DNA of 64,000 nucleotides, from the NCBI RefSeq assembly GCF_014647915.1, contig NZ_BMQC01000008.1, positions 62,001 through 126,000 of the forward strand. The letters are read 5' to 3'. The position numbers were made by a program, and so were the translations under genes. Each line of letters opens with the position of its first letter. Within the stretch, counting starts at the first letter, position 1. Positions 28,441 through 51,376 of the stretch are shown here, one piece after another. The stretch comes from Pilimelia terevasa. Lineage in GTDB: Bacteria; Actinomycetota; Actinomycetes; Mycobacteriales; Micromonosporaceae. The notes beneath the pieces are model-generated. The model was given only the letters and a program-made list of their open reading frames with translations, made no database searches and was not told the origin of the DNA.

Positions 28441-30408
28441 GTGGCCGACCGGAAGTTGATCCTGGACATCCTGGCCCGGGACCGGGCCTCCCGGCCGATC
28501 GAGCGGGTCGGGGACGCCGCCGACGGTGCTGGCACCTCGCTGGAGGGCATGGCCAAGGACGCCGCCCACCTCGATGACGAGCTGGGCCGCACCCAGAAGG
28601 CGATGCAGGTCCTCACCGGGGAGATGGCCCGCCTGGACCGCGGGTCGGCCCGCTTCAAGGAGCTGCGCAAGGAGTTCGGCGCCCTGTCCCGCGACGCCGG
28701 GCAGCTCGGCAAGATGCGCAAGGTCCTCGGTGACGTCGGGGCCGATGGTGCCGAGGCGATGTCGATGTCGTTCTCCCAACGCATCGGGCCGCTACTGGCC
28801 AAGGCGCCGGTGTCGGCGCCGCTGGTCGGCGCGGTGGCCGCGGCGGCCCCGGCGATCGGCGCGGCCGTCGGCGCGGCAGTGCTGTCCGGCCTGGCCGCCG
28901 GCACGGTCGGCGCCGGGGTCGCCATGGCGTTCCGGCACCCCTCGGTCAAGGCCGCCGGCCGGGAACTGGCCACCGACTTCGAGTCGGCGATGATGGACGC
29001 GACCGCCGACTTCGTGCCCGCCACCGTCTCGGCGATCGGTGTCATCCGCGGCGAGGTGCGGTCACTGGGGCCGGAACTGCGCGGGGTCTTCGCCCCAGCC
29101 GCCCAGTACGTGGCGCCGCTGACCCGCGGCCTGACCGGGTTCATCCGCGGGGTGCTGCCCGGTCTGGCCTCGGGCCTGCGCCGGGCCAAGCCGGTCGTGG
29201 ACGCCCTGGCCGCCGGGTTCGCGCTGGTCGGTGAGCAGACCGGGGAGGCGCTGGAGGCCATCGGCGACGGGTCGGCCGGCGCGGCGATGGCGCTCAAGGA
29301 CATGCTGGTCGTCACCGCCTACGGCGTGCGCGCCCTGGGCGAGACGGTCGGATTCCTGTCGAAGATGTACGGCGGGATGCGGGTGGTGGCCTCCGGGTTC
29401 TCGGCGTCCACGATCGCGGAGTTGGCGCAGAACGAGGCGTCGGCCCGGCAGATGAACGCGGCGTTCGGCAACCTCACCAGCGGGCTGGGCTCCTACAGCA
29501 GCGCCGCCGGTGGGGCAGCGGGCGCGACCCGACACCTGACCGAGGCGCAGATCGAGAACGCCGACCGGGCGCTGGCAGCCTTCGACGCCGAGACGGCGCT
29601 GGCCACCGCGATCCGCGACGCCGGCAAGGCCGCACAGGGCGCCTCCGGCGGGATCAACCTGAACACCGCCGCCGGGCTACGCAACCGGGAAGCCCTGTCG
29701 AAGCTGTCGGCGTCGATCATCAAGTCCGTCGCCGACTACGAAGCCCAGCACGGCGCCACGGCCCGGTCAGCGCAGATGCAGCAGCAGGGCTACGACGCGT
29801 TCCTCAAGGCCGCCCGCGGCATGGGCGTCACCGGCGCCGCGGCCCGGAACCTCGCCAAGCAGCTCGGGCTGCTGCCCCGCACCGTGCGGATCAACGTGGA
29901 CACCCACTACCGGATGTTCGGCAAGCCCGGCACCTCGGTCGGTGGGATCGGCGGCCAGGGCTTCAAGGGCTACTCCAAGGGCGGCCCAATCGAAGGCCCA
30001 GGCCCGCGCGGCCGGGACTCCGTACCGATCCTGGGCGCACCGGGCGAGGGTGTGCTGAACCTGCGCGGCATGGCCGCCGTCGGCGGTAAGCGGGGCCTGG
30101 CCGCACTGAACAAGGGCGACCGGCCGGTCGCCTCGACCCCGGCCGCCGCCGCCAGCCGCGGTCCAGCGGTGGCCGCAGCCGCCCAGCGCGCCGCCCGCAG
30201 CGCCACCATGGTCCGCCAGGCCCTCACCTCCTCAGTCCCCGTGCCCGCGCCCGCGGCCGACCGAACCACCCCCGGCGCCGCTGGCCGGCTGGCCCTGTCG
30301 TGGGAAGGCTCGTCCAACCGGCTGATCGACGCGTTCATGCAGGGGCTGCGGTATGAGATCCGCACCCAGGGCGGCAACGTCCAGGCCGTCCTGGGCACCG
30401 GCGCCTGA
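28441..30408 (+). CDS. Tape measure protein
   Basis: A 655-residue protein. The N-terminal region is helical and coiled-coil (DELGRTQKAMQVLTGEMARL), followed by several hydrophobic segments (SAPLVGAVAAAAPAIGAAVG), a long helical middle and a Gly/Pro-rich C-terminal part. Fairly short for the family, which predicts a tail of about 100 nm at the usual 0.15 nm per residue. GTG 28441 follows the frameshifted chaperone by four bases. Confidence 0.9.
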   Translation: MADRKLILDILARDRASRPIERVGDAADGAGTSLEGMAKDAAHLDDELGRTQKAMQVLTGEMARLDRGSARFKELRKEFGALSRDAGQLGKMRKVLGDVGADGAEAMSMSFSQRIGPLLAKAPVSAPLVGAVAAAAPAIGAAVGAAVLSGLAAGTVGAGVAMAFRHPSVKAAGRELATDFESAMMDATADFVPATVSAIGVIRGEVRSLGPELRGVFAPAAQYVAPLTRGLTGFIRGVLPGLASGLRRAKPVVDALAAGFALVGEQTGEALEAIGDGSAGAAMALKDMLVVTAYGVRALGETVGFLSKMYGGMRVVASGFSASTIAELAQNEASARQMNAAFGNLTSGLGSYSSAAGGAAGATRHLTEAQIENADRALAAFDAETALATAIRDAGKAAQGASGGINLNTAAGLRNREALSKLSASIIKSVADYEAQHGATARSAQMQQQGYDAFLKAARGMGVTGAAARNLAKQLGLLPRTVRINVDTHYRMFGKPGTSVGGIGGQGFKGYSKGGPIEGPGPRGRDSVPILGAPGEGVLNLRGMAAVGGKRGLAALNKGDRPVASTPAAAASRGPAVAAAAQRAARSATMVRQALTSSVPVPAPAADRTTPGAAGRLALSWEGSSNRLIDAFMQGLRYEIRTQGGNVQAVLGTGA

Positions 30409-33149
30409 TGCCGTTCCCGGGGGTGCCGCTGCCGGTGCGCGTCTACCTGGACCCCGGCGGCGCGCCTGCCGATCCGGGGTCGTGGGCGTGGACCGACATC
30501 ACCGGGTACGTGCGGGACCGGGACGGCATCGAGATCGCCGTCGGCCGCCCCGACGAGCGCGGGGAGGTCGGGCCGGGTCGGTGCACGCTGCGGCTGGACA
30601 ACACCGACGGCCGGTTCTCCCCGCGCAACCCGCTCGGGGCCTGGTATGGGGAGCTGGGGCGGAACACGCCGATCCGGGTGGCGCTGGCGTGGCTGTCGGA
30701 CACCTTCGGCCGCACGGTGGTCAACGGGTGGGGCACGTCCAGCTCCGGGCACGCCTGGACCCTGTCGGGCACCGCCGCGGACTTCGACGTCACCGCCGGG
30801 GCCGGCACCATCGTCGTGGCCACGGCCGGTACGGCGCCGTCGGCGACCCTGGCCCCGACCCTGCATGACGTGTCCGCCCGGATCACCGGCACCCTGTCCA
30901 CGGCCAACGTCACCGGCAACCAGGCCGGCTTCGGCGTCGACCTGCGCGGCGGCACCAGCGGGGCGTGGTCGTGCATGGCCCTGGTCAACGCCGACGAGTC
31001 GGTGACCGCGATCATCTACGGCCGCACCGGCGCGGTCCTGGCCTCAGCGACCGTGCCGACGCTGACCCACTCCGGGCAGGCGTTGACCGTCCGCGGTGAG
31101 GCGTCTGGTACGGATCTGCGGGTGCGGGTATGGGCGGCGGCCGGCGCCGAGCCGGCCGTGTGGCACGCGACCGCGGCGGCCACCGATCTGGATCCGGGCA
31201 CCGTCGGGGTGCTGGCCTACCGGCACGCCTCCAACACCAACGCCGGCCTGACCGTCACGTTCGACAACTTCGGCGTGGAGGTGGAGCGGTTTACCGGGCT
31301 GGTGTCGGAGTGGCCGCCGCGGTGGGACCTGTCGGGCAACGACGCCACCACCCCCATCGTCGCCAACGGCATCCTGCGCCGCCTCGCCCAAGGGCAGGCG
31401 CCTGCCGCGCCCGCGCTGCGTCGGGCGATCGGCGTCCACAGCCCGGTGGCGCACTGGCCGCTGGACGACGGCGCCAGCGCCCGCTCCGGCGCCTCCCTGG
31501 TGCCCGGCGGCACACCGCTGGCGGCGGCCGGGACGTTCACGTGGTCGGACGGCACGCCGCCGCTCGGGGCGACCGGATGCGTACGCGCCGACGGCGTCTA
31601 CAACACCACCCTGGGCACCACGCTGGGCGTGTTGAAGGGCTCGGCCGTCCCCAACGCCGCCGCCGCAGCCGGCTGGACGTTCGTGCTCTGGGAGCGGCAG
31701 GTCAACGCCTGGGCGGCCGGGCAGACGATGAACACCTACGGCTGGATCTACGACGCCGGTGGGTCCGGCACCGTCTGGGTGTGGCAGATCAACCACCAGA
31801 CCCAGCAAATCGACTGCGCCTGGTACTCCGACGCCAACACCTTCGGCGGCGCCGTCGGCTCACTGACCACCATCGACATCCTCGGCGACTGGCGGCAGAT
31901 CGCCGTCACCCTCGCCCAGGCCGGCGCCGACATCTCCGCCGCGGTGCACATCACCTCCAGCTACGACGGCGCCCCCGTGGCCACCTACACCGCCGCGTCC
32001 ACCGTCGCCGGCCGCACACTGGGCGCCCCGGACCGGCTGGAGCTGTGGATCCAGGGCTACACCGGCGCCGGGGTCGTCCTACCGGTCGCCTACCTGTCCA
32101 CGTGCGCCCTCCTCCCGGCCGCCCTGACCACCGCCCAGCTCACCGCCCTGGGTGAGGCCGGGTTCGGCGGGTCCGGGCAGACCGCAGTGCAGCGGATCGC
32201 CGCGCTGTGCGCCCAGGAAGGCGTACCGGTGCACCTGCCCGGCGTCGACCACTCCAGCGTCCTGGGCGCGCAGCCGGCCCGGCAGCTGCTGGACCTTATC
32301 CGCGAAGCTGAGCGCACCGACGCCGGGGTGCTGTACGAGCGTGGAGGCGGCCTGGCGTACCGGCCGCGCGCTGACACCTACAATGCGGCGGCGGACCTGA
32401 CCATCGGGTGGGAACACACCTCGCCCGCACCCGAGCCCACCGACGACGACCAGCGCCTCCGCAACCGCATCGTCGCCTCCCGGGAGAACGCCGAGTCGGT
32501 CACCGTCGAAGACGCCGCCTCGATCGCCGCCGCCGGCCTGTACGAGGATCCCGTGCAGGTGTCCCTGCCCGGCCCCGGGATGCTGCCCTCGCACGCCACC
32601 TGGCGGCTACGCGCCGGCACCATCACCGACCAGCGGTACCCGGCCATCGGCATCAACCTCGCCGGCCAGACCGCCCTGGCTGATGGGTGGCTGGGCTGCC
32701 AGATCGGCTCCCGCATCGACCTGGTCGACCCGCCGGCCGGCCAGGCCCCCGATGACGCCCCGCTGATCCTGGAGGGCTGGACCGAGCGGCTGCACATCTT
32801 CGGCTGGGACCTGGAGCTGGCCACCAGCCCCGCCACCGTCTACCGCGTCGGCGTCTACGACGACACCGACCTGGGCCGGGCCGACACCGGCGGCAGCCAA
32901 CTCAACTCCGCCGCCACCGCCGGGGCCACGTCGCTGTCGGTGCTCACCACCGTCCCGCCGACCTGGTCAACCACCGCCGTCCCCTACGACATCGCCGTGG
33001 GCGGGGAGCGAATCACCGTCACCGCCGTCACCGCAGCCGTGGCCAACGTCCAGACGTTCACGGTCGTGCGCGCGGTCAACGGCGTAGCCAAGGCCCACGC
33101 GGCCGGCGCGCCGGTGTCGCTGTGGGCGCCCGTCCGCTACGCCCTCTAG
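30408..33149 (+). CDS. Minor tail / tail-tip protein with LamG-like domain
   Basis: A 913-residue protein. The N-terminus (about 1-90, WTDITGYVRDRDGIEIAVGR and RCTLRLDNTDGRFSP) is the conserved start of actinophage minor tail proteins. A concanavalin/LamG-like beta region spans about 340-560 (SPVAHWPLDDGASARSG). The C-terminal part ends with a conserved repeat-like domain (ERITVTAVTAAVANVQTFTV). Probably binds the host envelope. Confidence 0.8.
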   Translation: MPFPGVPLPVRVYLDPGGAPADPGSWAWTDITGYVRDRDGIEIAVGRPDERGEVGPGRCTLRLDNTDGRFSPRNPLGAWYGELGRNTPIRVALAWLSDTFGRTVVNGWGTSSSGHAWTLSGTAADFDVTAGAGTIVVATAGTAPSATLAPTLHDVSARITGTLSTANVTGNQAGFGVDLRGGTSGAWSCMALVNADESVTAIIYGRTGAVLASATVPTLTHSGQALTVRGEASGTDLRVRVWAAAGAEPAVWHATAAATDLDPGTVGVLAYRHASNTNAGLTVTFDNFGVEVERFTGLVSEWPPRWDLSGNDATTPIVANGILRRLAQGQAPAAPALRRAIGVHSPVAHWPLDDGASARSGASLVPGGTPLAAAGTFTWSDGTPPLGATGCVRADGVYNTTLGTTLGVLKGSAVPNAAAAAGWTFVLWERQVNAWAAGQTMNTYGWIYDAGGSGTVWVWQINHQTQQIDCAWYSDANTFGGAVGSLTTIDILGDWRQIAVTLAQAGADISAAVHITSSYDGAPVATYTAASTVAGRTLGAPDRLELWIQGYTGAGVVLPVAYLSTCALLPAALTTAQLTALGEAGFGGSGQTAVQRIAALCAQEGVPVHLPGVDHSSVLGAQPARQLLDLIREAERTDAGVLYERGGGLAYRPRADTYNAAADLTIGWEHTSPAPEPTDDDQRLRNRIVASRENAESVTVEDAASIAAAGLYEDPVQVSLPGPGMLPSHATWRLRAGTITDQRYPAIGINLAGQTALADGWLGCQIGSRIDLVDPPAGQAPDDAPLILEGWTERLHIFGWDLELATSPATVYRVGVYDDTDLGRADTGGSQLNSAATAGATSLSVLTTVPPTWSTTAVPYDIAVGGERITVTAVTAAVANVQTFTVVRAVNGVAKAHAAGAPVSLWAPVRYAL

Positions 33150-36605: not shown

Positions 36606-36863
36606 TCAGTCCCAGTCGTAGTCGTCTCGCTCGCGGCGTCCGATGCGGCCGGCGCGGCGTAGGAGCATGACGGCGGCGATGCCGCCGAGGGGCCAGGCCC
36701 ACCAGGGCAGGTCGGCGCGGTGGTCCCAGGCGGCGATCGCGGCGCCGAACACGACCACGAGGGCGGCCAGGCGGAGTAGGCCGGGGCCGAGGACGGCCAG
36801 GATCGGATGGCGCATGCCGACGCTGAACCCGGCGGCATCCCGGGCGGTCCGAAAGAAACTCAC
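36606..36863 (-). CDS. Small two-span membrane protein (85 aa)
   Basis: Two transmembrane segments (LAALVVVFGAAIAAW and WWAWPLGGIAAVMLL) and a basic-acidic tail. Directly downstream of the iteron-like repeats. It resembles Spd-type small spread proteins by size and topology, but no family is recognised. Confidence 0.6.
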   Translation of the reverse strand: MSFFRTARDAAGFSVGMRHPILAVLGPGLLRLAALVVVFGAAIAAWDHRADLPWWAWPLGGIAAVMLLRRAGRIGRRERDDYDWD

Positions 36864-36884
36864 GGCTCACTCCTTGTGGTCGTT

Positions 36885-37003
36885 GCGTGTAGTGCACGCG
36901 TGTAGTGCACGGCTTCTCCAGCGTGTAGTGCACGCCTCGCGCGCGCGTAGGGCCTGGGGCTGAGCCCCGAATCCACGCTTCTACACGGTCGTGCACTACA
37001 CGC
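36885..37003. repeat. TGTAGTGCAC repeat cluster at the 3' end of the FtsK-like gene
   Basis: TGTAGTGCAC is present at 36888-36897, 36901-36910 and 36923-36932, and inverted at 36991-37000, always in the wider context GCGTGTAGTGCACG. A further inverted copy is at 39791-39805. The cluster lies in the gap between the FtsK-like gene and the small membrane protein gene. It could be an operator or a translocase recognition (clt-like) locus. Confidence 0.75.
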
Positions 37004-37008
37004 CGCGG

Positions 37009-39123
37009 CTAGTCACTGGCGGTGATGGCGGTGCGGGGGTTGAGCAGGTAGTGCCCGCGGCCGTCGCCGCGGCGGAGCAGGTCGTCGGCCGGGTCGTCAG
37101 CCCAGGCTCCGAGCCACTTCGACAGCCATGAGGCTTTCATGCCGGTGGCGGACAGGACGTCCTCTGCGATGTCGCCGGGGCGCACGTCGGCGCTGTGGGC
37201 GGCGAGCTGCCGCAGGTGATCGCGGAGGTGGGCGCGGGCCTGGTGGTCATCCATCCGCGGCTGGAGCGCGAGCTGCATTCCGCAGTCGTCGTCGCTGATG
37301 GTGTAGCCGTCCAGGTCGTGGATGTCGGCGAGGTCGTCGGGGACGGTGTGCTGCTCCAGCTCGGAGTCCTCCTCGTCCTCGTCGTCGAGGTCTTCGAGGG
37401 CTTCACGCAGCAGGTCGCTGGCGTCACCGTCGAGGTCCTCCAGGCTGGCGTCCTCGCCGACGGCCGCGAGTAGGCCGCCGTCGTCTTCGTCGTCGTCGTG
37501 GAGGTCCTCGTCGTCCAGGTCTAGGCCGTCGTCCCCGTCGGGGTCGTCGTGGGTGTGAGTCTGCATCGTGCTGGCGGGCAGGGGTGTGGGGGTGGTCTGG
37601 CCGGCGCGGAGGGCGATGAGGTGTTCGGCCCAGCGGACGAGCAGGTCAGGGGCGCGGTCGTAGGTGCGGCCGGGCTCGGTCTGGAGCTGCTTGTCGATGC
37701 CGACGCCGGCCAGGTAGCAGGCGCCGGGCTTCTCGGCGCCCCAAACGTGCGGGCCGCCTTCGCCGAGGGCGTCGACGACGTCTTCGGGTAGGGCGTAGGT
37801 GGCGTCGTCGGCGTCTTCCACGCCGTAGCACAGGTAGAGGTTGAGGTTGGCGCGCATGGAGGTGGGGAGCCGGTCGAACGTGGCGCGCTGCAGGCCCAGG
37901 GCCAGGCCGACGCCGAGGCTGCGCAGGGTCTCGGACAGGTCCACGGCGACCCGCTCCACGTCCTTAGCCACGGCGGCGAACTCGTCGATGACGACCCACC
38001 GGTAGGGCACCGGGGCGCCGGGCGCCCACTGCTCGTAGCCGGCCTCGCCGAGCAGCTTGGCCCGGCCTGGCATCTCGGCCTCCAGCTCGCGCAGCAGCGC
38101 CTTCACGCCCGCCTTGCTGTCGGCGGTCCGGGCGGCGCCCTTGGCGACCCAGGCGGGCTCCTGGTCGAACTTGCGGGGGTTGAGGTACCAGTACTCGACC
38201 TCGGCCGGGGCGCCGCGGGACATGAGGGTGACCAGCATCTTGCGGATGCCCTCGCTCTTGCCGGCCCCGGACATGCCGGTGATCAGCAGCAGCGCCGCGT
38301 TGCGGCCCTCGGCGGCGTCGCCGGGCAGGTGGAAGGCCAACGGTCGGCCGGACTGGCGGCGGCCGATGACGATCGGGTCCATGATCGTGCCGAACCCGTA
38401 GGTGCCGGTGCCCGTGGACACGATGCCCGGCCACGGCGGCGGCGTGGCGAGGTGGTCGACCGGGGACATCCGCAGCGTGCCCACGCGGGTCGACGTCCCC
38501 GGCTTGCCCGGAATGATCTGCGCAGACCCGGGCGGCAGGTCGTGCACGGACTCCAGCGTGGCCGCGACTCCGTTCTTCTGGAGGTCGGCGATGGACGCGC
38601 CGGGCTCGGCGACGATGTCGGCCACGATCGTGCCGTTCTCCTCGTGGGGGGCTTTGATGTCGCGGACGTCGGCCAGGGCGCGGGCGAGCCGGTCGCTCAT
38701 GCCGCTCTTGCCGCCTTCCTCGGCCGCCGGGCGGGTGCGGGAGGCGAACAGGACGTTCGCCGCCGCCGCGGCGGTGAACGCGGCCATGCCGTAGGCGGCG
38801 AACGGCCGCCACGTCAGGTCAGGCAGTATCCCCAGAACCCACGACCAGCCCCCAGCCACCGCGGCGCCGCCGACGGCGAGCTGGTGGACGGTCTTGCCGT
38901 GGGCGGAGGTGGCCAGGTGCTTGGTGGCCCGGTGCACCACGTAGGTGATCCCGCCGTACATCGTCAGGGTCAGCGGGGACCACGCCCACGCGTACGCCTG
39001 GTCGGCGGCCAGGACGAACCGCACGGGCAGCGCGGACACCCCCATCCCGGCCGCGACGGCCCAGGGGGCCACGATCGGGACCGGGGCGAAGTGCCCGGGG
39101 CGGGTGGAGCGCATCGTGGTCAT
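37009..39123 (-). CDS. FtsK/TraB-type DNA translocase in the prophage
   Basis: A 704-residue protein. Several N-terminal transmembrane segments (about 15-130), then an FtsK/SpoIIIE motor with Walker A ITGMSGAGKSE (about 280) and Walker B WVVIDEFAAV (about 375). A long acidic linker (DDDEDDG and similar) leads to a C-terminal winged-helix-like domain (LSATGMKASWLSKWLGAW). This is the architecture of TraB proteins that pump double-stranded DNA during actinomycete conjugation. It is unexpected in a prophage. Confidence 0.85.
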   Translation of the reverse strand: MTTMRSTRPGHFAPVPIVAPWAVAAGMGVSALPVRFVLAADQAYAWAWSPLTLTMYGGITYVVHRATKHLATSAHGKTVHQLAVGGAAVAGGWSWVLGILPDLTWRPFAAYGMAAFTAAAAANVLFASRTRPAAEEGGKSGMSDRLARALADVRDIKAPHEENGTIVADIVAEPGASIADLQKNGVAATLESVHDLPPGSAQIIPGKPGTSTRVGTLRMSPVDHLATPPPWPGIVSTGTGTYGFGTIMDPIVIGRRQSGRPLAFHLPGDAAEGRNAALLLITGMSGAGKSEGIRKMLVTLMSRGAPAEVEYWYLNPRKFDQEPAWVAKGAARTADSKAGVKALLRELEAEMPGRAKLLGEAGYEQWAPGAPVPYRWVVIDEFAAVAKDVERVAVDLSETLRSLGVGLALGLQRATFDRLPTSMRANLNLYLCYGVEDADDATYALPEDVVDALGEGGPHVWGAEKPGACYLAGVGIDKQLQTEPGRTYDRAPDLLVRWAEHLIALRAGQTTPTPLPASTMQTHTHDDPDGDDGLDLDDEDLHDDDEDDGGLLAAVGEDASLEDLDGDASDLLREALEDLDDEDEEDSELEQHTVPDDLADIHDLDGYTISDDDCGMQLALQPRMDDHQARAHLRDHLRQLAAHSADVRPGDIAEDVLSATGMKASWLSKWLGAWADDPADDLLRRGDGRGHYLLNPRTAITASD

Positions 39124-39125
39124 GG

Positions 39126-39467
39126 TCAGTCTCCGAACTTCAGCTCACGGCGCCCGGACCGCTTCTTACGGCGGCCGGCGGCCTGCAACTCCGGGGCGTA
39201 CTGGGTTTCGAACCGGCGGCACGCCAGCTTCAGGTAGCGGGCGGCGGCGAACATCAGCACCGACGCCAACGCGATCGGACGCACGATCTGCCCGGCCCGC
39301 TTCCGGGAGGCCCGCTGGTCGTGGATCCGCAGCATCGCCCCCAACGTGCCGGCGGCCATGGCCAGCTCACGGGCGTGGTAGGCCAACGCCTTGGCGTAGG
39401 TGCGGAAGTAGGCGCGCAGCTCCTTGTCGGTGACCACGTCGTCGATCGTCATCAGGCGGTTCGTCAT
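39126..39467 (-). CDS. Hypothetical protein of the transfer-like module (113 aa)
   Basis: Mostly helical with one hydrophobic stretch (IVRPIALASVLMFAAARYL). Encoded four bases upstream of the FtsK-like start, so probably co-translated. Not recognised. Confidence 0.55.
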   Translation of the reverse strand: MTNRLMTIDDVVTDKELRAYFRTYAKALAYHARELAMAAGTLGAMLRIHDQRASRKRAGQIVRPIALASVLMFAAARYLKLACRRFETQYAPELQAAGRRKKRSGRRELKFGD

Positions 39468-39477
39468 GGCGTTCTCC

Positions 39478-39897
39478 CTAGAATCCGAGGTCTTCGCGCA
39501 GCAGCAGGTACAGGGCGTAGATCAAATCCGGGTCGCCGGTGGTGAACCGGATGGCATGGGGGCGCCGTCGGCGCCGCCACCAGGTGGGCCGCCGCCACGG
39601 GTCGTTGTGGCCGGGGGCGTCCACGGCCAGTAGCCCGGGCAGCCACCACCGGGCCGGCCGCAACGCCACCGAGGTGACATCCCGGACCGGGAAGGTGACC
39701 TGCGTCGGGGGCTTGGGTAGCCGCGGCGGCTTCAGGCCGACCGCGCGGGCGCCGCGGGTGGCCTTGGCCTGGGCGCGGGCGTGACGCCACGCGTGCACTA
39801 CACGCACCCACCAGCGTGGCTCCACGCGAATCCACGCCCCGTCATAGGACAGGTGCCGGTCCAGGCCGGTCACCACGATCGGGTCGACGGCGCTCAT
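39478..39897 (-). CDS. Hypothetical protein (139 aa)
   Basis: Contains VEPRWWVRVVHAWRHARAQA and YALYLLLREDLGF; beta-rich with many Trp/Arg residues. ATG 39897 overlaps the upstream gene's stop. One inverted TGTAGTGCAC copy lies inside it. Not recognised. Confidence 0.55.
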   Translation of the reverse strand: MSAVDPIVVTGLDRHLSYDGAWIRVEPRWWVRVVHAWRHARAQAKATRGARAVGLKPPRLPKPPTQVTFPVRDVTSVALRPARWWLPGLLAVDAPGHNDPWRRPTWWRRRRRPHAIRFTTGDPDLIYALYLLLREDLGF

Positions 39898-40256
39898 GCC
39901 GCCCACGCCCCCACCCCGGACACGACCAGGACCACGAGGACGGCCGGCCAGTTCCCGGTGCTCAGGGCGAGCCCGGCCGCGCCGAGGACGGTGACGCCAC
40001 CCGCCACCGCGGCGGCCGCGCGCGGGCTGACCGACGGCGCAGCGCGCCGGGGCGGGGGCGGCCAGTACGCGGCCACGTCGGCGGCCGCCCGGGTGGCGAG
40101 GACCTTGCCGGTGGCGGACGCCAGGCCCCCCGGGAGCCGGTCCACGACGACCCTCGCCACTTCGCGGTCGCCACTCCACTGCGCCACCTGGCGGCGGACG
40201 GTGGCGGGGTCGCCGGTGGCGCGGTAGCGGGTGACGTAGGTGGCGGGGAGGTTCAT
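39894..40256 (-). CDS. Small membrane protein (120 aa)
   Basis: A soluble N-terminal half (ATYVTRYRATGDPATVRRQV) and two C-terminal transmembrane helices (AAAAVAGGVTVLGAAGLAL and WPAVLVVLVVSGVGAW). Possibly a spread protein by context. Confidence 0.55.
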   Translation of the reverse strand: MNLPATYVTRYRATGDPATVRRQVAQWSGDREVARVVVDRLPGGLASATGKVLATRAAADVAAYWPPPPRRAAPSVSPRAAAAVAGGVTVLGAAGLALSTGNWPAVLVVLVVSGVGAWAA

Positions 40257-41284
40257 CGGTCACTCCTGTCGGTGGCGGAAGAGGTGGCGGACTGGCGCAG
40301 GCCCGCCAGGTCCCGGGACACGGACCGCTCCGCCACTTCGGTGCCGAATGCCTCGCTGAGCTGCGCGGCGATGGTGGCGGCGGAGGCGTCGGGGTCGTTC
40401 CGCCACAGCTCCGCCACTGCCTGCCGGCGGCGGCTGGCGGGGACCTTCCCGCCACTGGCGGAAGTGGCGGACGCCGGAGAAGTGGCGGACGGCTTCGCCA
40501 CTTCGGCGGGCGGGCTCGCCACAACGGTGTGGCGGACGAGCGTCTTGGTGGCGGACCCGTTCGCCACCTTCGCCACTACGCGGGTGGCGGGCTCCGCCAC
40601 TGGCAGGGTCAGAAGTGGCGTGGCGGGAAGTGGCGTGGCGGACGCTGGCGGGCTCGCCACCTTGCGGGTGGCGGACGGCGAAGTGGCGGGCCGTGGCGTG
40701 GCGGGCTTCGCCACTTCACGGGTGGCGGACGGCTCGACGGCCGGCTTCGCCACCGGAGGCGGAGTGGCGGACGCTGGCGCCAACTTCGGGGCCGGCCGCG
40801 TTGGCGCGACCGTCGCCGGCAGCAACTCGTCTTGGCGCGCCACGTCTGCCGCCGGTTCGTCGGCCATGTGCGCCAGGGCCGACCCCATCCCCAGCACCAG
40901 GACCGGCAGGCACGCCACGATCGTCGTGATCCACCACGGCGCCGACCCGGCCTGGACCGGCACGAGGAGGTGGTAGGCGATCTGCCCTGCCGCCCCCAGC
41001 AGCAGGGAGGCGACAGCGGAGGTGCGGGCGAAGCGGCGGGCCTTGGCGCTGCCGTGCCCGGACAGCCACACCCACAGCGCGTACGCGGCGTACGTCTCGA
41101 CGCCGATCGGGAGGGTGATGGCGGTGTCGACGGTCCAGCCGCCACCGATGCCGGGCAGGAGGTTGACCTTCCCGAAGCCGGTCATCTTCCCGAGGCCGAC
41201 CCAGCCGGCCCACACGGCGACGAACGCGGGCAGGCACAGCACGAGCAGCGGCCACCTGGGCAGGCTGCGTGCGGTGCTGGTCAT
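40253..41284 (-). CDS. DUF2637/Spd-like membrane protein with C-terminal HTH
   Basis: A 343-residue protein. Four transmembrane segments span about 10-145 (LLVLCLPAFVAVWAGWVGLG and others), as in DUF2637/SpdB proteins of actinobacterial plasmids. A linker of about 130 residues is made of Ser-Ala-Thr and Val-Ala-Lys repeats. The C-terminus (about 285-335, ASAATIAAQLSEAFGTEV) is a helix-turn-helix. The gene contains a very high density of GTGGCGGA/TCCGCCAC. Encoded with the FtsK-like gene, so a role in transfer or spread is likely. Confidence 0.7.
   Translation of the reverse strand: MTSTARSLPRWPLLVLCLPAFVAVWAGWVGLGKMTGFGKVNLLPGIGGGWTVDTAITLPIGVETYAAYALWVWLSGHGSAKARRFARTSAVASLLLGAAGQIAYHLLVPVQAGSAPWWITTIVACLPVLVLGMGSALAHMADEPAADVARQDELLPATVAPTRPAPKLAPASATPPPVAKPAVEPSATREVAKPATPRPATSPSATRKVASPPASATPLPATPLLTLPVAEPATRVVAKVANGSATKTLVRHTVVASPPAEVAKPSATSPASATSASGGKVPASRRRQAVAELWRNDPDASAATIAAQLSEAFGTEVAERSVSRDLAGLRQSATSSATDRSDR
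40261..40800. repeat. Dense TGGCGG/CCGCCA repeats
   Basis: By eye about 20 TGGCGG plus at least six CCGCCA and eight TCGCCA lie within 540 bp, many as AGTGGCGGAC or TTCGCCACTT. They encode the SAT/VAK linker. A weaker continuation reaches about 40090. Confidence 0.7.
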
Positions 41285-44268: not shown

Positions 44269-45408
44269 GTGACCCCCTTCGCTGCCCGCCTCGCCGCCCT
44301 ACGGTCATCCCGTGACCTCACCCTCGACGCACTCGGCAGCCGCGCCAACCTGTCCCGCTCCTACGTCTCCGAGCTGGAGCACGGCAAGAAGAAGCCCAGC
44401 GCCAAAGCCGCCCGCCTGCTCGACGCCGCACTCGACGCCGACGGCGCCCTCGCCGCACTCGCCGACGCCCCACCCGTCCGCGCACCGGGGCTCCTCGTGG
44501 TGACCACCGACCCGCGAGCGCCGCTGTCCCTGGACGACATCGCCGCCGTCCACGGGGCGATCGGGCAGCTCGTGGCCACCGACACCGCGCACGGGTCGAC
44601 CGGGCTCGCCGAGCGGGCCGCCGCCGCGTTCCGGGACGTCGAGAGCCGCCTGGCGACCGCTGGCGCCGACCCGCACGCCGGCCGGGACGCCGCCGCCGCG
44701 GTCGCCGAGCTGGGCGAGGTCGCCGCGTGGGTGTCCTACGACGCCGACGAGCAAGGACTGTCCCGGCAGCTCGCCACCGACGCGCTCCTCGTCGCCCAAG
44801 CCGCCGGGGACGCCGACATGCAGCGGTTCCTCGCCTCGCACCTCTCGATGCAGTCGGCGTACGTGGGCCGCGGGGCGGAGGCGCTGGCGATCGCCGATCG
44901 GGCGCTGGCCGAACAGCCGGCCTCGCCGCGGGTCCGCGCGATGTTCATGGTCCGGCGCGCCCGCGCGCTCGCCGTCCTTGGCGACATGGCCGGGGCGCTG
45001 GCCGAGATCGCGCACGCCCGCGCGCTGCTGGCCGACGGGCTCAAGGCATCCGACCCGTCGTGGACGTGGTGGCTGCACGAGGCCGAGCTGGCCGTACACG
45101 AGGCCCGGGTGCGGGCGGCCGGCGGTGACATGGCCGGCGCCGTGGACCTGTCCGCCCAGTCCGTGGCCGCGCTGCCCTCGCGGCAGGGACGCGACGGGGT
45201 GCTGTACCGGGCGTGGCTACTCCACGACCTGGTGGCCGCCGGCTCGTGGGCCGAGGTCGACGGGCTGGCGCGCGAGCTGATCGTCCGCGGCGGCGCGGCC
45301 AAGACGGCCCGGGTCCGCGCGATCATCGCTCAGGCCCAGGCGCGCGCCCGCGCGGCCCGCGCTCCAGCGGCCGTGCTGGACGCCCTCGACGGCATCCTCG
45401 CCACGTAG
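44269..45408 (+). CDS. XRE-family regulator with TPR-like domain
   Basis: A 379-residue protein. HTH at about residues 8-60 (LDALGSRANLSRSYVSELEH). The remainder is helical repeats (ARALAVLGDMAGALAEIAHA and others) resembling TPRs, as in peptide- or ligand-responsive actinobacterial regulators. It lies near the right end of the prophage and may be a lysogenic-state gene. The upstream palindrome suggests self-control. Confidence 0.75.
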   Translation: MTPFAARLAALRSSRDLTLDALGSRANLSRSYVSELEHGKKKPSAKAARLLDAALDADGALAALADAPPVRAPGLLVVTTDPRAPLSLDDIAAVHGAIGQLVATDTAHGSTGLAERAAAAFRDVESRLATAGADPHAGRDAAAAVAELGEVAAWVSYDADEQGLSRQLATDALLVAQAAGDADMQRFLASHLSMQSAYVGRGAEALAIADRALAEQPASPRVRAMFMVRRARALAVLGDMAGALAEIAHARALLADGLKASDPSWTWWLHEAELAVHEARVRAAGGDMAGAVDLSAQSVAALPSRQGRDGVLYRAWLLHDLVAAGSWAEVDGLARELIVRGGAAKTARVRAIIAQAQARARAARAPAAVLDALDGILAT

Positions 45409-45763: not shown

Positions 45764-45796
45764 CGGAACCGGCGGAGGGTGTGGGATTCGAACCCA
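45764..45796. repeat. Right attachment site of the prophage
   Basis: Identical 33-bp copy of 2827-2859. It overlaps the left attachment site of the AICE, so one tRNA 3' fragment serves both elements. Confidence 0.85.
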
Positions 45797-45830
45797 CGAA
45801 GAGGTTGCCCCCTTACCGGTTTTCAAGACC
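45771..45830. repeat. Left attachment site of the AICE (tRNA-Ser 3' half)
   Basis: 60 bp identical to 61292-61351, from just outside the 3' end of tRNA-Ser into the anticodon loop and stem. Beyond 45830 the sequence diverges, so this is not a functional tRNA. Confidence 0.9.
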
Positions 45831-45913
45831 TACCAGGAACCGCCGTTTACCTGCGACGGACCATCGCCGGTCATAGTAGCCGACACGCATCCGACATCTA
45901 GTCACCTGAGGGC

Positions 45914-46480
45914 TCAGCCGGGCATCGGTGGTGCCAGGGCTCCGTCACGGCGATGATCTGGCATCTGCGCGTGGATGAGGGCTGCGGTGACCGGCGGTTT
46001 GGTTACGCCGGTATCAATGCGCAAACATGGAGAAAGTATCTCAGGGGTGTCATCCCATGCCTTAAGTCGCGCGGCAACTGAAACGCTATCGCGCAGCTTC
46101 AATCGCCTAATTGCCTCTACCCGCGCGCACCACAGATGGACGACCACGCATCGTTTTGGTCCAACATGACGAACCACCGCCTCTATTCCTTCTGGTTGAC
46201 CCATGTGCAGAATCGGAATGTTTCCTTTGGTGAGCATCATATCGAGCATGGGTCGATCGATTGCATAAAGGGCGGCATATCGCCGATTTTCCCAAACGAT
46301 CTCTTTTGCCGCTCGCAAAGCCTCAATTGCGGCCTCGGAACTCATCCGATAACCTGCCGTCTTGCCTGGCCCGACTTTTAGGCGCGGAAACAGCGAGTAT
46401 CTAGGTGAGATCCGTTTCAGTGCGTCCGTCACCGTATCTTTTCCTGCGGCTGGCGCCCCATAGAGTACTAGTGCTGGCAT
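45914..46480 (-). CDS. Guanylate-kinase-like P-loop protein of the AICE
   Basis: A 188-residue protein with Walker A GAPAAGKDT (residues 8-16) and a later YAIDRPMLDMML, resembling guanylate/nucleoside-monophosphate kinases. Translation is coupled to the upstream GntR-kinase fusion (ATG 46480 overlaps its stop region). Base composition is clearly lower in GC than the rest of the window. Substrate unknown; nucleotide sensing or phosphorylation of a small molecule is possible. Confidence 0.7.
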   Translation of the reverse strand: MPALVLYGAPAAGKDTVTDALKRISPRYSLFPRLKVGPGKTAGYRMSSEAAIEALRAAKEIVWENRRYAALYAIDRPMLDMMLTKGNIPILHMGQPEGIEAVVRHVGPKRCVVVHLWCARVEAIRRLKLRDSVSVAARLKAWDDTPEILSPCLRIDTGVTKPPVTAALIHAQMPDHRRDGALAPPMPG

Positions 46481-47331
46481 TACAGCGCACCGTCAAGAAC
46501 GTTTGATAACAAATTTTTGGCTTGAGTTTGAAGGGGTACCCCCGAAGAACAGTTGTCGATTACGTCATGCCTGATCGCCGGGCGGAAGTCGGTATCAATC
46601 GAGGCCAAGTAGCCGGGCCAATCGGCGAGCTTTGCCGCGTCGCGAGCCGCCCCCCGATGCCGGATGTACGTATGCATGGTGTCGGGATCACAGTGCATCC
46701 ACACAAAGTGCGTACTCGCATTGTGCGTGGAGAAAGTCGCCTGAGTACGAGCGAGCCACGCCGTGTCGCCGAATTCGCGCAGAAACGGCGCAGTTACGAT
46801 TGCACTGTTTCCGCAGGAGACATTTTCGAGGGTCGCTGCTGCCAGCGCTTCATACTCGCGCGGACGGATCACGGATAGATAAGCCTCTGACTCGCGGTCA
46901 TTGGGCGAAAGCCCTAATACCTCAAGTGCCGCTTCAACTACTGGTCTGGTAAGCGTGTCTTTGTCGAGAATGGGCCATCCGGTCTCACGAGCCAGAATTC
47001 GTCCAAGCTCAGTTTTGCCGCTACCCGCGAAGCCACCCACCATAATCACCAAAGGGTTTCGTAAACGAACCTTTTCCTGAGCGGCTGTATGGTTCGAATT
47101 CACAATACGCTTTGAGCGTGACTTTGTAACGACCAAACCCTCGGCAATCAGAAGCTTCATCGCCTCCGAGATAGTGAAAACGCTTACGCCCCACTGTTCC
47201 GCTAATTCACGCGTGGACGGAAGGACGTCGCCGTCCCGCAGGGTGCCCGCTTCGATGTGGTTGCGCAAGGTTCGCGCCACTTGGCGGTGTAGTGAGTCCG
47301 ACCGGGTCAATCCCGACCTCTCCGGCGTCAC
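46480..47331 (-). CDS. GntR-family repressor fused to a P-loop kinase
   Basis: A 283-residue protein. The N-terminal GntR winged helix (about 10-80) has VLPSTRELAEQWGVSVFTIS. After a short linker a kinase-like domain carries Walker A GGFAGSGKT (about 99-107) and LDKDTLTRPVVEAAL, similar to AAA_33/zeta-toxin-type kinases. In pSAM2-like elements a GntR protein (KorSA) represses excision and replication; here the C-terminal part could make repression respond to a phosphorylated ligand. GTG 47331 has GAGGAG upstream. GC content is low for the host. Confidence 0.75.
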   Translation of the reverse strand: MTPERSGLTRSDSLHRQVARTLRNHIEAGTLRDGDVLPSTRELAEQWGVSVFTISEAMKLLIAEGLVVTKSRSKRIVNSNHTAAQEKVRLRNPLVIMVGGFAGSGKTELGRILARETGWPILDKDTLTRPVVEAALEVLGLSPNDRESEAYLSVIRPREYEALAAATLENVSCGNSAIVTAPFLREFGDTAWLARTQATFSTHNASTHFVWMHCDPDTMHTYIRHRGAARDAAKLADWPGYLASIDTDFRPAIRHDVIDNCSSGVPLQTQAKNLLSNVLDGAL

Positions 47332-47388
47332 AGTCGCTCCTCGCCTAGCTGCGGTGTCAACGCCTCAGTATACCAGGCACATATCAGA

Positions 47389-47471
47389 TGTTAGGTCCAG
47401 TGTCTAGGTCTGACCAGTACAACCAAGGTCTACTTCCTAACAGTTGTGCTGACTGCCAAACAGTTGTTAGG
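47389..47471. promoter_or_regulatory. TGTTAGG operator cluster upstream of the GntR fusion
   Basis: TGTTAGG at 47389-47395 and 47465-47471 and its inverse CCTAACA at 47436-47442 lie within 85 bp. The last two frame an inverted repeat with internal ACAGTTGT copies. This is the divergent promoter region of the low-GC operon, a likely GntR operator. Confidence 0.55.
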
Positions 47472-47572
47472 TTCCTCGTGTCGCCGGTTGACGAGCGACG
47501 GAGCGGCCCCGGCTGTGACGTCCGCTACGAGCCGTCGCACGCAGGTTCGTTGAGAACTCCACAGAGGCAGCG

Positions 47573-47788
47573 TTGACCGGGCTGCACCACGAACGGTCAG
47601 GCGTCCTACCCGATCCGCTGGGAAGCGGCACGCGGGCGATGCCAGCACCAAACGAGAAGACGAAGACGCTGACCTGCCCGGATGTGTCCTGGCGGGTTGG
47701 TGGCCTGCACCCCCTGAGGGGTGTGGGTGCGGCGCCCTGGCCGGTGTTAGCGCACCGGCCGGGCTGCCGCCTCCCCCTCTGGCACTGA
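47573..47788 (+). CDS. Doubtful small ORF in the AICE leader (71 aa)
   Basis: Starts with ATG 47573 without a clear RBS and covers the hairpin-rich leader (GVLPDPLGSGTRAMPAPNEK). Composition is not convincing. More likely structured untranslated RNA. Confidence 0.2.
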   Translation: MTGLHHERSGVLPDPLGSGTRAMPAPNEKTKTLTCPDVSWRVGGLHPLRGVGAAPWPVLAHRPGCRLPLWH

Positions 47789-47863
47789 CGCCCTGGGGGG
47801 CTTGGCTGCGGGTCGACGTTGACGCGTCGGCCCGCCCTGTATTGCTCACCGAAAGGACAAACG
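47580..47863 (+). ncRNA. Structured leader of the AICE transfer operon
   Basis: Several hairpins can be drawn: CACCCCCTGAGGGGTG (around 47709), and GGCCGGTG-TTAGCG-CACCGGCC (around 47740), plus a GC-rich CCCCCTCTGG/CCTGGGGGG pair. The region is about 280 nt with no convincing gene and leads to a strong RBS (GAAAGGA) before 47864. A cis-acting RNA or attenuator is possible. Not matched to a known class. Confidence 0.35.
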
Positions 47864-48148
47864 ATGAACACAAATCAGAGTACGGGCCGGCGCCGGTTGG
47901 CGCTGGTGGCACCGCTGGACCCGGTGCCGGTGGAGGGGCCGACGACGGCGGAGTTGGAGGAGATTGAGGCGGAGTGGCCGTTGATCGCGGCCGAGCTGGA
48001 AGTGGTCGACGCGGAGTGCGCGATGGCCCGCACCGGCTCGCCGTCGGAGCTGGATCACCGCAGGCTGCGGCGGGCGCGGGATCGGGTGCTGCGGGAAGCC
48101 GCCGCCCTGTCCACCGGCCGCCGGGTTGTCACCTCGTGGGCCGCGTGA
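47864..48148 (+). CDS. DUF6284-like small AICE protein
   Basis: A 94-residue acidic protein with the pattern TTAELEEIEAEWPLIAAELE followed by a basic helix (RRLRRARDRVLREAAAL). Proteins of this type are a recurrent first gene of AICE operons in Streptomyces-like bacteria. Function unknown. ATG 47864 has GAAAGGA upstream; its stop overlaps the next start. Confidence 0.65.
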   Translation: MNTNQSTGRRRLALVAPLDPVPVEGPTTAELEEIEAEWPLIAAELEVVDAECAMARTGSPSELDHRRLRRARDRVLREAAALSTGRRVVTSWAA

Positions 48149-48381
48149 TGGCCGCCGCCAAGGTTCGCACGGTGGTGCCGGCGGTGGAGCTGCGTCCGGG
48201 TGATGAGGTGCGTACCCCGTCGCTGCGGTGGGAGAAGGTCGCCACGGCGACGCGGGCGGGTCGGCACGTGCGGGTCGTCACCGACGGCACCGGCCCGGAC
48301 TATCCGTGGTTGTGGGTCTGCGGCCACCGCCTTACCGTTCGCCGCCGGATGACCGCCGTCCCCCCGGCGGTGGCGGCGTGA
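48148..48381 (+). CDS. Small AICE protein (77 aa)
   Basis: Beta-rich with VELRPGDEVRTPSLRWEKVA and RHVRVVTDGTGPDYPW, resembling the small SH3-like proteins that accompany DUF6284 genes. TGATG overlap with the upstream gene. Confidence 0.55.
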   Translation: MAAAKVRTVVPAVELRPGDEVRTPSLRWEKVATATRAGRHVRVVTDGTGPDYPWLWVCGHRLTVRRRMTAVPPAVAA

Positions 48382-48515
48382 CCGCTGTACTCGCCGCCGC
48401 GGTCGCTGCGGGGCTGTCGGCGGTGGTGACGCATCGGGTTGATGTGTGGTGGTGGCGCGGTGCCGCCGCCCGGACCGCCCGCCGCCTGGCTGTACGCGGC
48501 CGGGAGGTGGTGTGA
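48378..48515 (+). CDS. Small single-span membrane protein (45 aa)
   Basis: GTG 48378 overlaps the previous stop. A hydrophobic N-terminus (VLAAAVAAGLSAVV) and a basic tail (RGAAARTARRLAVRGREVV). Confidence 0.5.
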   Translation: MTAVLAAAVAAGLSAVVTHRVDVWWWRGAAARTARRLAVRGREVV

Positions 48516-48928
48516 GCGTGGTGGGCCGGTTTGTGGATGTGTCGATGACCGGCACCCCGGCCGAGGTCGCCGCCATGCTGCACCGTCACCAGGCCGGCGG
48601 GGATCTGGTCCTGGTGAACCCGCCCCGCCCGGTGGCCGATGGCCGTATCGCGGTCACGGTTCGCACGGTGCCCGCCCCTGGCGCCGCCCTGGCCGTGCCC
48701 GCGGCCTCCCCGCCGGTTCCGCTCGGGCTGGTGGTGGTGCGGCGGTACTGGCGCCCGGTGCTGGCCGGCGGGTCTGCGCTGGCGGTGGTCGGCGCGGCTG
48801 GCTGGGCGGTGTGGCTGGTGGTGGGGTTCGTGGCCGTGTGGTGGCCGCTGCTGCTGGCCGGCGTCGCGGTGGTGTGGCTGGGGTGGGCGGTCGCTGGTCG
48901 TGGTGGCCGGCACTGTCCCGGCTGCTGA
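48512..48928 (+). CDS. Membrane protein of the transfer operon (138 aa)
   Basis: An N-terminal soluble beta region then two transmembrane helices (GGSALAVVGAAGWAVWLVVG and WPLLLAGVAVVWLGWAV). GTG 48512 overlaps the previous stop. Probably a spread (Spd-type) protein by context. Confidence 0.6.
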   Translation: MSVVGRFVDVSMTGTPAEVAAMLHRHQAGGDLVLVNPPRPVADGRIAVTVRTVPAPGAALAVPAASPPVPLGLVVVRRYWRPVLAGGSALAVVGAAGWAVWLVVGFVAVWWPLLLAGVAVVWLGWAVAGRGGRHCPGC

Positions 48929-48997
48929 CCAGCCCCGCCCATCCTCTCTCCTCCTTCTTTCTCTCCCCTTTTTTGCTCCTGATTGGAGTTGTTTGGC

Positions 48998-49369
48998 ATG
49001 GCTAGTGCTGTGAACCCGTTTGCGGAGGTCCCCGCCGCCCGGGTGGCTGATGGCCTGGTGGAGGCCGCTGCCGCGCTGCGGACGGTGGACGACGGGCATC
49101 GGATGTGGGCGGCGCTGTATGTGCGCCCGGGACTGCTTCTCTCGCAAGACGAGGCTGCCGCGGTCGCGGCGGTGGACGCTGTCGCTGCCGCCCTGGGCGT
49201 GCCCGCGATGACCGGGAAGGAACACGGGCAGTGGCGGCACGCCGCGGTGCGCGAGTGGGACGGTTTCAGTACCGACGTCAAAACCACAGTCACCCCGCCG
49301 CGGGTGTGCGCCTGCGGTGCCACCTGCCACCACGCCGCCCCACCGGTGGTGCCGGTGGTGGGTGGATGA
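48998..49369 (+). CDS. Small soluble AICE protein (123 aa)
   Basis: Helical N-terminal part (VADGLVEAAAALRTVDDGHR) and a Cys/His cluster at the C-terminus (CACGATCHHAAP). RBS TTGGAG. Function unknown. Confidence 0.55.
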   Translation: MASAVNPFAEVPAARVADGLVEAAAALRTVDDGHRMWAALYVRPGLLLSQDEAAAVAAVDAVAAALGVPAMTGKEHGQWRHAAVREWDGFSTDVKTTVTPPRVCACGATCHHAAPPVVPVVGG

Positions 49370-50286
49370 CCGCCCCTGCGGTGGTCCGCAGCGCGTATCC
49401 GCCGCCGGTGGACCGGCTGTTGCCTGAGGCCCGGAAGCTGGCTGAGGAGATGTCGGGTGTGCCGTCGCGGAACCGGCTGATGCGCGAATTCCGTATCGGG
49501 GCCTCGAAAGCCGACGCCCTACGCGCCGCCCTCACCCAGCCCGGGGACGTACCGGAACGCGGCCCCGACATCGACACCTTGGAGCCGGACCGGATCCCGG
49601 ATCCGGGGACGCGACCTGATGACCCGGACCCGGACCCGATGGTGACCGAAACGGATGCGGTCACGCACGACGTGGCGGCGCAGGTCGACCCGGACCGGCA
49701 GGACGCCGAGGACACCGCGGACCCGGATCCGGTCCGGGACCGCGACGCCGGCACGGTGAAACGCCGCCGGGTCCGGTGGCCACGGCGCCGCCGATCTAGG
49801 CCGGCGGTATCTGGGCTGGTCACCGGGGTCGGACACCCGGGCACGGCAGCCCGTGATGTCGGGGACATCGGGCACCTGAAACGGGTCCGCTGGGGCGTCC
49901 GCCTGGTCCTTGCCCTGGGGGTGGCTGCGTCGATTGCGGGCAACGTTTTGCACGCCCGGGACAACATCGTCAGTCAGGTCATCTCCGCCTGGTCACCCCT
50001 GGCCCTGCTCCTCACGGTGGAGCTGATTTCCCGGGTCCCGGTCCACCGGGCGGGTCTGGCGGTGGGCCGGTGGGCGGCAACCACACTCATCGCCGGCATC
50101 GCGGCGTGGGTGTCGTACTGGCACATGACGGCCGTGGCGGTCCGCTACGGCGAAACCAGCGGATCGGCCCACCTGTTGCCCCTGTCGGTAGACGGCCTGA
50201 TCGTTGTCGCGTCGATCTGTCTGGTGGAGCTGGGCGGACGCATCACCACCCACATTCGCACTCCCCTGGTGAAGGAGATCCCCTGA
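49366..50286 (+). CDS. DUF2637 (Spd-type) membrane protein with N-terminal HTH
   Basis: A 306-residue protein. An HTH-like part (GVPSRNRLMREFRIGASKAD, about 30-60) is followed by an acidic Asp/Pro linker, a basic stretch and four transmembrane helices with the DUF2637 signature ASIAGNVLHAR, SAWSPLALLLTVELISRVP and LLPLSVDGLIVVASICLVEL. Members occur next to traB in AICEs and plasmids and are thought to help intramycelial spread. ATG 49366 overlaps the previous stop. Confidence 0.8.
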   Translation: MTAPAVVRSAYPPPVDRLLPEARKLAEEMSGVPSRNRLMREFRIGASKADALRAALTQPGDVPERGPDIDTLEPDRIPDPGTRPDDPDPDPMVTETDAVTHDVAAQVDPDRQDAEDTADPDPVRDRDAGTVKRRRVRWPRRRRSRPAVSGLVTGVGHPGTAARDVGDIGHLKRVRWGVRLVLALGVAASIAGNVLHARDNIVSQVISAWSPLALLLTVELISRVPVHRAGLAVGRWAATTLIAGIAAWVSYWHMTAVAVRYGETSGSAHLLPLSVDGLIVVASICLVELGGRITTHIRTPLVKEIP

Positions 50287-50426: not shown

Positions 50427-50480
50427 CCCGCTCGACCTGCTGTTTCTGCTGTTCACCACCTGATGTTGAGGGAGATTTGT

Positions 50481-51227: not shown

Positions 51228-51376
51228 TGGGTTCCCCGACGTCACCCCGTACTAGACGCACTGTACATGTGCTGACCTGCACGTTCTGAAACGCCGAGGC
51301 GCGGCCCACTGGGCTGGACACCTCCGGCCGCGCCCCGGCCTCCCCCTTGCCACCTTTCGATGACAGGAGTGTCTCC

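Follow-up and report, generated by a model that had tools for sequence, protein, structure and literature searches.

TraB hexamers are reported to load at repeats, to form a pore and to pump double-stranded DNA, and a type IV secretion system is not required (PMC3218068, PMC4170104). In the Streptomyces conjugative plasmid pWTY27 the clt, the cis-acting transfer site, is described in PMC3583192 as 16 bp of the tra gene together with the adjoining 159 bp, and holds four 7-bp TGACACC repeats that were footprinted and bind the Tra protein. As a route of gene flow, phages are mostly considered apart from conjugative elements; a 2024 study of P1-like phage-plasmids reports elements in which phage genes were lost and functions related to conjugation were gained (PMC10879196). 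Described here is a prophage in a stretch of 64,000 nucleotides (nt) from Pilimelia terevasa (Micromonosporaceae; contig NZ_BMQC01000008.1, positions 62,001 to 126,000), which at its full length is called the window and is numbered from its first letter. Judged from its genes and repeats, the prophage very probably contains a TraB-clt transfer cassette that actinomycete integrative conjugative elements (AICEs) have as well, and within one family the cassette is found in prophages from seven genera. Computation gave the identities of the genes, the cluster of repeats, the match of repeats to TraB winged helix across the family and the recurrence in other prophages.

The TraB-like pump and the repeats beside its gene

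An original prediction, made from the letters of the window, placed a conjugation-type translocase module at 36606-41284, and its genes are indeed found there, on the minus strand. The module lies wholly inside the prophage and converges on the late genes. Its central gene (37009-39123, minus strand) encodes a TraB-like pump of 704 amino acids (aa), modelled as an FtsK-type motor that has helices on its N-terminal side and a winged helix at the C-terminus. In the NCBIfam ranking the plasmid TraB profile NF041214 comes first (E 9.1e-75, 252 bits), far ahead of EccCa (7.2e-7) and FtsK (7e-5), and it aligns end to end, residues 16-698 of the pump with positions 8-636 of the 639 of the profile. 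A chromosomal FtsK or a type VII ATPase was rejected on this order. The protein also matches FtsK_SpoIIIE (PF01580) over the cut-off (E 1.6e-7) and has Walker A and Walker B motifs.

An AlphaFold2 model of the whole pump displays the N-terminal helices and the FtsK-type motor, with a pLDDT of only 61.5; the modelled motor aligns with FtsK at Z 24.6 over 244 residues. The C-terminal part, predicted alone, is a winged helix (pLDDT 82.9). Fold searches with this domain returned generic winged helices (best Foldseek E 0.011; VIA Z 10.0, then 7.7), and FtsK's own winged helix is not among the matches listed, which decides nothing. The FtsK_SpoIIIE match over its cut-off, the Walker motifs and the modelled helices and winged helix bear out the FtsK/TraB-like pump with membrane anchor and C-terminal winged helix of the original prediction.

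Directly upstream of traB is a traA-like gene (39126-39467, minus strand, 113 aa), which matches the plasmid TraA profile NF041213 at E 6.1e-4 and 19.9 bits. With the same profile the counterpart in the prophage of genome G106 scores 38.9 bits (E 8.9e-10) and the TraA of pCQ4 111 bits. The order TraA then TraB is that of pCQ4, pSN22 and pS4.7b, as in the prophage. The original prediction is corrected accordingly, the pump being of TraB type and the protein beside it TraA-like.

The gap at the 3′ side of traB (36864-37008, 145 bp, minus strand) contains four exact copies of GTGCACTACACG. Three of these have the same direction (36886-36897, 36899-36910 and 36922-36933, minus), and the copy nearest traB is inverted (36991-37002, plus). 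The fifth and last copy of the genome is at 39793-39804 on the plus strand, inside the gene of a 139-aa protein, and all five exact copies in the 4.5-Mb genome, where about 0.5 are expected, are in the module. None of 1000 dinucleotide shuffles reached the repeat score of the gap. The gap matches the footprinted pWTY27 clt in place and size. The TGACACC core is also present 3′ of traB in pS4.7b and in an Amycolatopsis plasmid, and the corresponding gap of pSN22 holds CGCACAGC, close to the pJV1 clt repeat as quoted in PMC3583192. Its position and make-up indicate that the repeat cluster beside traB is very probably a clt-type transfer site, and it is referred to here as the candidate clt. The cluster and a separate AICE at 45771-61351 were not part of the original prediction.

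Recurrence of the cassette in prophages and AICEs

When 201 genomes were searched with the pump, 20, the own genome included, matched at 1e-10 or better. The TraA profile was run on 354 genomes of the family and gave 30 matches in 25 genomes; 24 are strong (E below 1e-38; 19 genomes), and the six weak ones are situated just upstream of AICE TraBs. A TraB adjoins every one of the 24 strong TraAs. Sorted by neighbours, these strong loci comprise 11 of prophage type, in seven genera (the window, G117, G046, G104, G035, G106, G420, G243, G210, G223 and G256), and 13 of AICE type, assigned on Prim-Pol or Xis-type neighbours (G058, G309 twice, G292, G329 three times, G418 twice, G374 twice, G351 and G415). 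A search for the same module in prophages of related actinomycetes thus gives ten further prophage-type loci in the family. A TraA scan of a class-wide draw of 394 genomes matched the own genome alone (1/394), and a scan of genome contigs with the TraB alignment found at least 80 loci, those listed being matched mostly over the motor.

The phage-gene evidence at the prophage-type loci is uneven. Terminase, portal or head genes are found beside the cassette in 5 of the 11: terminase and portal in the window, G117 and G106, a portal in G046 and a major head protein in G035. Tape-measure families are present at G243, G223, G256 and G104. G210 and G420 have nothing beyond the tape-measure-like phrog_34159 and genes that BLAST matches to those for tail or lysis. 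The G104 element (L035-L036; G104:C9:1853831-1868200) is short and encodes, besides TraA-TraB, an integrase, a tape-measure protein and a DUF3987 protein. A head gene was not noticed in it, and it may be a remnant, a satellite or a phage-AICE hybrid. The place of the cassette, between lysis genes and regulators, is conserved in phages with different head genes. Twelve loci were found in IMG/VR, with TraB in 11 and TraA by profile in seven, three of which repeat G046, G106 and G223. Of the other four, L118 and L121 have tape-measure-type genes beside the cassette, the phage evidence at L122 is limited to genes that BLAST matches to those for tail or lysis, and L125 is left unassigned.

The traB frame is open in 10 of the 11 prophages. 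It looks interrupted at L101, L102 and L103, i.e., in the G420 prophage and both G309 AICEs. Ratios of nonsynonymous to synonymous substitution (dN/dS), which are rough at this base composition, are 0.27, 0.36, 0.42 and 0.76 in four prophage traB pairs and 0.16 in two AICE pairs, which suggests that traB has been kept for use. In a TraB tree of 25 rows (g061 and g082 are on long branches), six prophage TraBs, that of G058 and seven AICE TraBs form one group with support 97/99. The prophages are not a single clade (2 changes; one origin is still compatible), and prophage and AICE TraBs intermingle. These sequences appear to share a common lineage.

Repeats were surveyed in 40 gaps 3′ of traB, with repeat pairs scored against 1000 shuffles each. 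Repeat-rich gaps, whose score was reached by at most 2 of the 1000 shuffles, are found in 10/11 prophage-type loci, 13/13 AICEs with phage-type TraA, 8/11 other AICEs, 4/4 plasmids and the AICE of the window; the three other AICEs above this level are G030 (33 shuffles), G101 (5) and G177 (3). Nine of the 11 IMG/VR gaps are at 2/500 shuffles or better, the remaining two being L123 (22) and L125 (359). When one uniform procedure is applied at the 1/1000 level, 9/11 prophage traB gaps pass as compared with 11/111 other gaps of at least 100 bp in the same loci (Fisher p 6.3e-7).

The relation between repeats and winged helix was assessed in 27 of the 40 elements, prophage or AICE, in which at least 550 residues are open to the stop in the stretch analysed; the rest were dropped. 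Repeat sharing follows C-terminal identity when the motor is controlled (partial Mantel r 0.33, p 0.0005), and in the reverse test on the same 27 elements, with the C-terminus controlled, no relation to motor identity is seen (r 0.03, p 0.38). The two AICEs of genome G418 have motors that are 98% alike, C-termini that are 83% alike, and different repeats (overlap 0.06). Fourteen alignment columns separate two pairs of repeat groups; eight are in the predicted helix 664-676, one (663) is just before it and five are elsewhere, and residue 665 separates the groups in both pairs. This concentration is in line with pSVH1 TraB, where helix alpha3 of the winged helix is reported to read the repeats (quoted in PMC3583192). 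By analogy the winged helix of the prophage TraB would read its own repeats.

The prophage, its module genes and the adjoining AICE

The tRNA-Ser(TGA) gene at 61292-61380 (minus strand) is the integration site of two mobile elements in tandem. The prophage, of 42,970 bp, is bounded by identical 33-bp direct repeats that have no strand, the left attachment (att) repeat at 2827-2859 and the right at 45764-45796. The latter overlaps the left att of the AICE, an element of 15.6 kb (45771-61351, plus strand) bounded by 60-bp direct repeats at 45771-45830 and 61292-61351. The AICE encodes a DUF2637 protein, a DUF3307 protein, an FtsK-like pump of its own (52211-54298), a Prim-Pol, a helix-turn-helix protein and an integrase. 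A 26-bp att core is common to all three sites (2834, 45771 and 61292), thus a 58-kb composite of prophage and AICE could excise. That the module is part of the AICE was considered and rejected, since the att repeats of the prophage enclose it and the AICE is equipped with a separate pump.

Several further observations concern the AICE. Its pump gene has repeats at its own 3′ end (54299-54448), where the 8-mer CCGGTCGC or its complement occurs six times, and these differ from the prophage repeats. An intergenic region beside its replication gene (58932-59374) has many TGCCGAGAT/ATCTCGGCA repeats, possibly origin iterons, and a low-GC patch is present at its left end (46001-48000; 0.589 vs about 0.72). 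Relatives of the host genes on the right flank of the window adjoin the AICEs of G309, G418 and G351 (L103, L108, L112) and the G035 prophage (L040), as at a shared integration hotspot.

Between its att repeats the prophage has a tyrosine integrase (2967-4112, minus strand), and on the plus strand a phage replication initiation protein (9100-10122), a DnaC-like helicase loader (10119-10835), the terminase large subunit, portal, head protease and major head protein (16274-21309, by PHROGs), and a tape-measure-like protein (phrog_34159) with a large tail-region protein (phrog_5313) at 28441-33149, both PHROGs being listed as function unknown. The phage setting that had been predicted is thereby confirmed, and the integrase, att repeats, terminase, portal and capsid are those of a temperate phage. 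The integrase and att repeats point to integration rather than to plasmid replication in the lysogen. The gene layout, by which the phage is known here, suggests a siphophage, whose virions would have a long non-contractile tail. The AICE combination, in which one element unites integrase and Tra with a replication gene of AICE type, was not found; the prophage has integrase and Tra with phage replication genes (RepSA and RepAM profiles were not run). The sole Prim-Pol match of the window region is in the neighbouring AICE (G000:C8:118443), and none is between the prophage att sites. It had also been proposed that the element has taken over AICE functions. This applies to the transfer genes only; integration and replication are provided by the prophage's own integrase and replication genes, and the AICE next to it is separate, with integrase, Prim-Pol and pump.

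The remaining module genes are all on the minus strand. Downstream of the gap is a small membrane protein of 85 aa (36606-36863), and other prophages have a 65-72 aa protein at the same place. Neither the 139-aa protein (39478-39897; start set by the gene caller of this analysis) nor the 120-aa protein (39894-40256), whose C-terminal part is hydrophobic, has a Pfam match. The last gene (40253-41284) encodes a membrane protein of 343 aa with an Ala/Pro-rich linker and a helix-turn-helix-like C-terminal part. It had been predicted as a DUF2637/Spd-like protein. By position it is a Spd candidate; a match to DUF2637 (PF10935) was not found in Pfam at E up to 1. Its positional counterparts in G104 and G106 do match DUF2637 (2.3e-16 and 1.7e-23) and are only 22-24% identical to it. 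Its membrane part has about 71-72% identity to AICE proteins (L104, L105, L107, L112), 65% to IMG/VR L031 and 56% to a protein of Thermobifida phage P1312. In the linker region of the gene (40464-40773) GTGGCGGACG occurs seven times on the plus strand, which may be a binding array or reflect low complexity of the protein; in the P1312 relative the linker is repetitive too, with a different repeat.

Possible roles of the cassette and comparison with known systems

The prediction of a conjugation-type translocase module in a siphophage is strongly supported by the TraA-TraB pair, the clt-like repeats, the AICE TraB lineage and the ten further prophage-type loci. The reading that is probably correct, by a modest margin over its negation, is that the module is a TraA-TraB-clt cassette of the conjugative Streptomyces plasmid and AICE kind, which moves excised prophage DNA between hyphae or compartments. 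It presumes that TraB binds the DNA and forms a pore, and that prophage DNA is passed from one mycelium to another or along the same one. Once excised and replicating as a circle, the prophage would be bound at the repeats 3′ of traB by TraB hexamers, via their C-terminal winged helix, and TraB would drive the double-stranded DNA across the membrane to an adjoining hypha or compartment. TraA and the small membrane proteins would assist, and neither a relaxase nor a type IV secretion system would be required. The original suggestion, that the element can spread as a virion and also by transfer from cell to cell, would fit the sequence, but movement along one mycelium could employ the same parts. 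A broader proposal, for which the chances seem evenly balanced, is that integrated temperate phages of this family include a recurrent class with two routes, one by virions and the other by TraB-clt transfer, which would take the intact double-stranded prophage from hypha to hypha; each phage would have a private repeat read by the winged helix of its own TraB. If this is true, TraB specificity, that of AICEs included, is readable from sequence; if the cassette works, prophages could spread through mycelia without lysis.

Several results weigh against the cassette reading. The TraA match is weak when taken alone (19.9 bits against an NF041213 cut-off of 80), and the 252 bits of the pump are below the NCBI curated equivalog cut-off of 800 for NF041214, which the Amycolatopsis plasmid protein (693) also misses and pCQ4 TraB (848) exceeds. 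Thus the names TraB-like and TraA-like are used, with no claim to an equivalog. When up to 2 mismatches are allowed, GTGCACTACACG is found 6 times in the window with 6.7 expected, no more than chance, so the signal consists of the exact copies and their clustering. The gap of the G223 prophage fails the repeat test (38/1000 shuffles), 11 of the 111 other gaps in the uniform comparison are equally repeat-rich, and the G420 traB looks frameshifted. The link between repeats and winged helix is carried mostly by AICEs, and clear repeat sharing among prophages is seen only between G223 and G256 (0.83). No phage record searched has a strong TraA or TraB match, also when the TraB and TraA of relatives served as queries.

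A rather unlikely alternative is that spread is intramycelial only, with TraB and the membrane proteins moving excised prophage DNA through the septa of an infected or lysogenic mycelium, such that one infection reaches many compartments. The same parts would serve, including the 343-aa protein with its membrane part and helix-turn-helix-like end; in plasmids, spread is reported to depend on Spd proteins, and SpdB2 of pSVH1 is described as a membrane protein that binds DNA and TraB (PMC4170104). No sequence feature tells intramycelial from intermycelial movement; in plasmids TraB with clt is the reported requirement for transfer between mycelia (PMC3583192, PMC3218068). A role in partition or maintenance, in which TraB and the repeats help the replicating phage circle to segregate or exclude related elements rather than transfer, is improbable. 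FtsK-family motors do act in segregation as well, and SpdA2 of pIJ101 with its site is reported to affect stability and not transfer (PMC4170104); the family match is, however, far better to TraB than to FtsK, and the paired TraA and the gap layout are of the transfer-locus type.

That the module is a membrane DNA pump for defence or superinfection exclusion is very unlikely. PADLOC reports mads_8 (1e-12) and SspH (1e-4) on the pump, but both cover only the motor (residues about 250-447), and the rest of the module is without a defence match save for helix-turn-helix regulator models on 44269-45408; a defence pump was rejected on these weak, motor-only matches. Just as little probability is given to the cassette being a passenger captured from an AICE, decaying or without effect on the phage: the intermingling of prophage and AICE TraBs and the apparently broken G420 traB would suit it, and against it are the other ten open frames, dN/dS below 1 in 4/4 prophage pairs and the conserved place between lysis genes and regulators. 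The prophage might itself move mainly along with the tandem AICE, in the 58-kb composite that excision across the outer att sites (2834 and 61292) would give and that the AICE pump would transfer. The common att core and the 3′ repeats of the AICE pump allow for this, but it accounts for this genome only and composite excision is hypothetical, which leaves it the faintest of chances.

The TraA-TraB-clt cassette reading can be set against several known systems. FtsK-like pumps of free phages (the mycobacteriophage LittleE group, Bacillus phages, Streptomyces phage Gilgamesh and Thermobifida phage P1312) share the FtsK-type motor. P1312 has, in addition to the 56% relative of the 343-aa membrane part, modest 3′ repeats (4/1000 shuffles) and a weak partial TraB match (8.2e-7). 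Gilgamesh was rejected as a free-phage relative, with a partial TraB match (7.9e-15) and no repeats after its gene. The phage collection gave no TraA match. Prophage Phi1207.3 of Streptococcus pyogenes is reported to move by a process fitting conjugation, with a mechanism still to be elucidated according to its authors (PMC4260502); the word FtsK is absent from the text of that paper. A description of integrated prophages with a TraA-TraB-clt cassette was not found in the open-access literature, a search that leaves out most subscription journals.

The conjugative Streptomyces plasmid loci (pSN22 and pS4.7b, and pWTY27 by literature) are like the prophage in having TraA then TraB, repeats just 3′ of traB and a C-terminal TraB winged helix. 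Unlike in those plasmids, the cassette is here in a prophage, without plasmid replication genes and with a TraB score under the family cut-off. AICEs share with the prophage a close TraA, TraB and gap layout and relatives of the 343-aa protein, and those of G309, G418 and G351 use the same tRNA-Ser locus. In contrast to AICEs, neither Prim-Pol/RepPP nor a gene set of AICE type lies between the att sites of the prophage, whose replication, head and tail genes are those of a phage. In the Streptomyces plasmid-phage pCQ4, too, traA-traB is beside terminase, portal and capsid genes. The title of a pZL12 paper in the reference list of PMC4487206 presents that element as a plasmid-phage with transfer and a lytic phage cycle, and its conjugal transfer is reported to require a tra gene and two neighbours (PMC3583192). 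Thus phage genes and TraB on one element are already known, pCQ4 and pZL12 being plasmid-phages with tra genes. These two replicate as plasmids, and the TraB of pCQ4 is outside the prophage TraB group, whereas the prophage described here has the integrase and att repeats of an integrated temperate phage, together with a private repeat.

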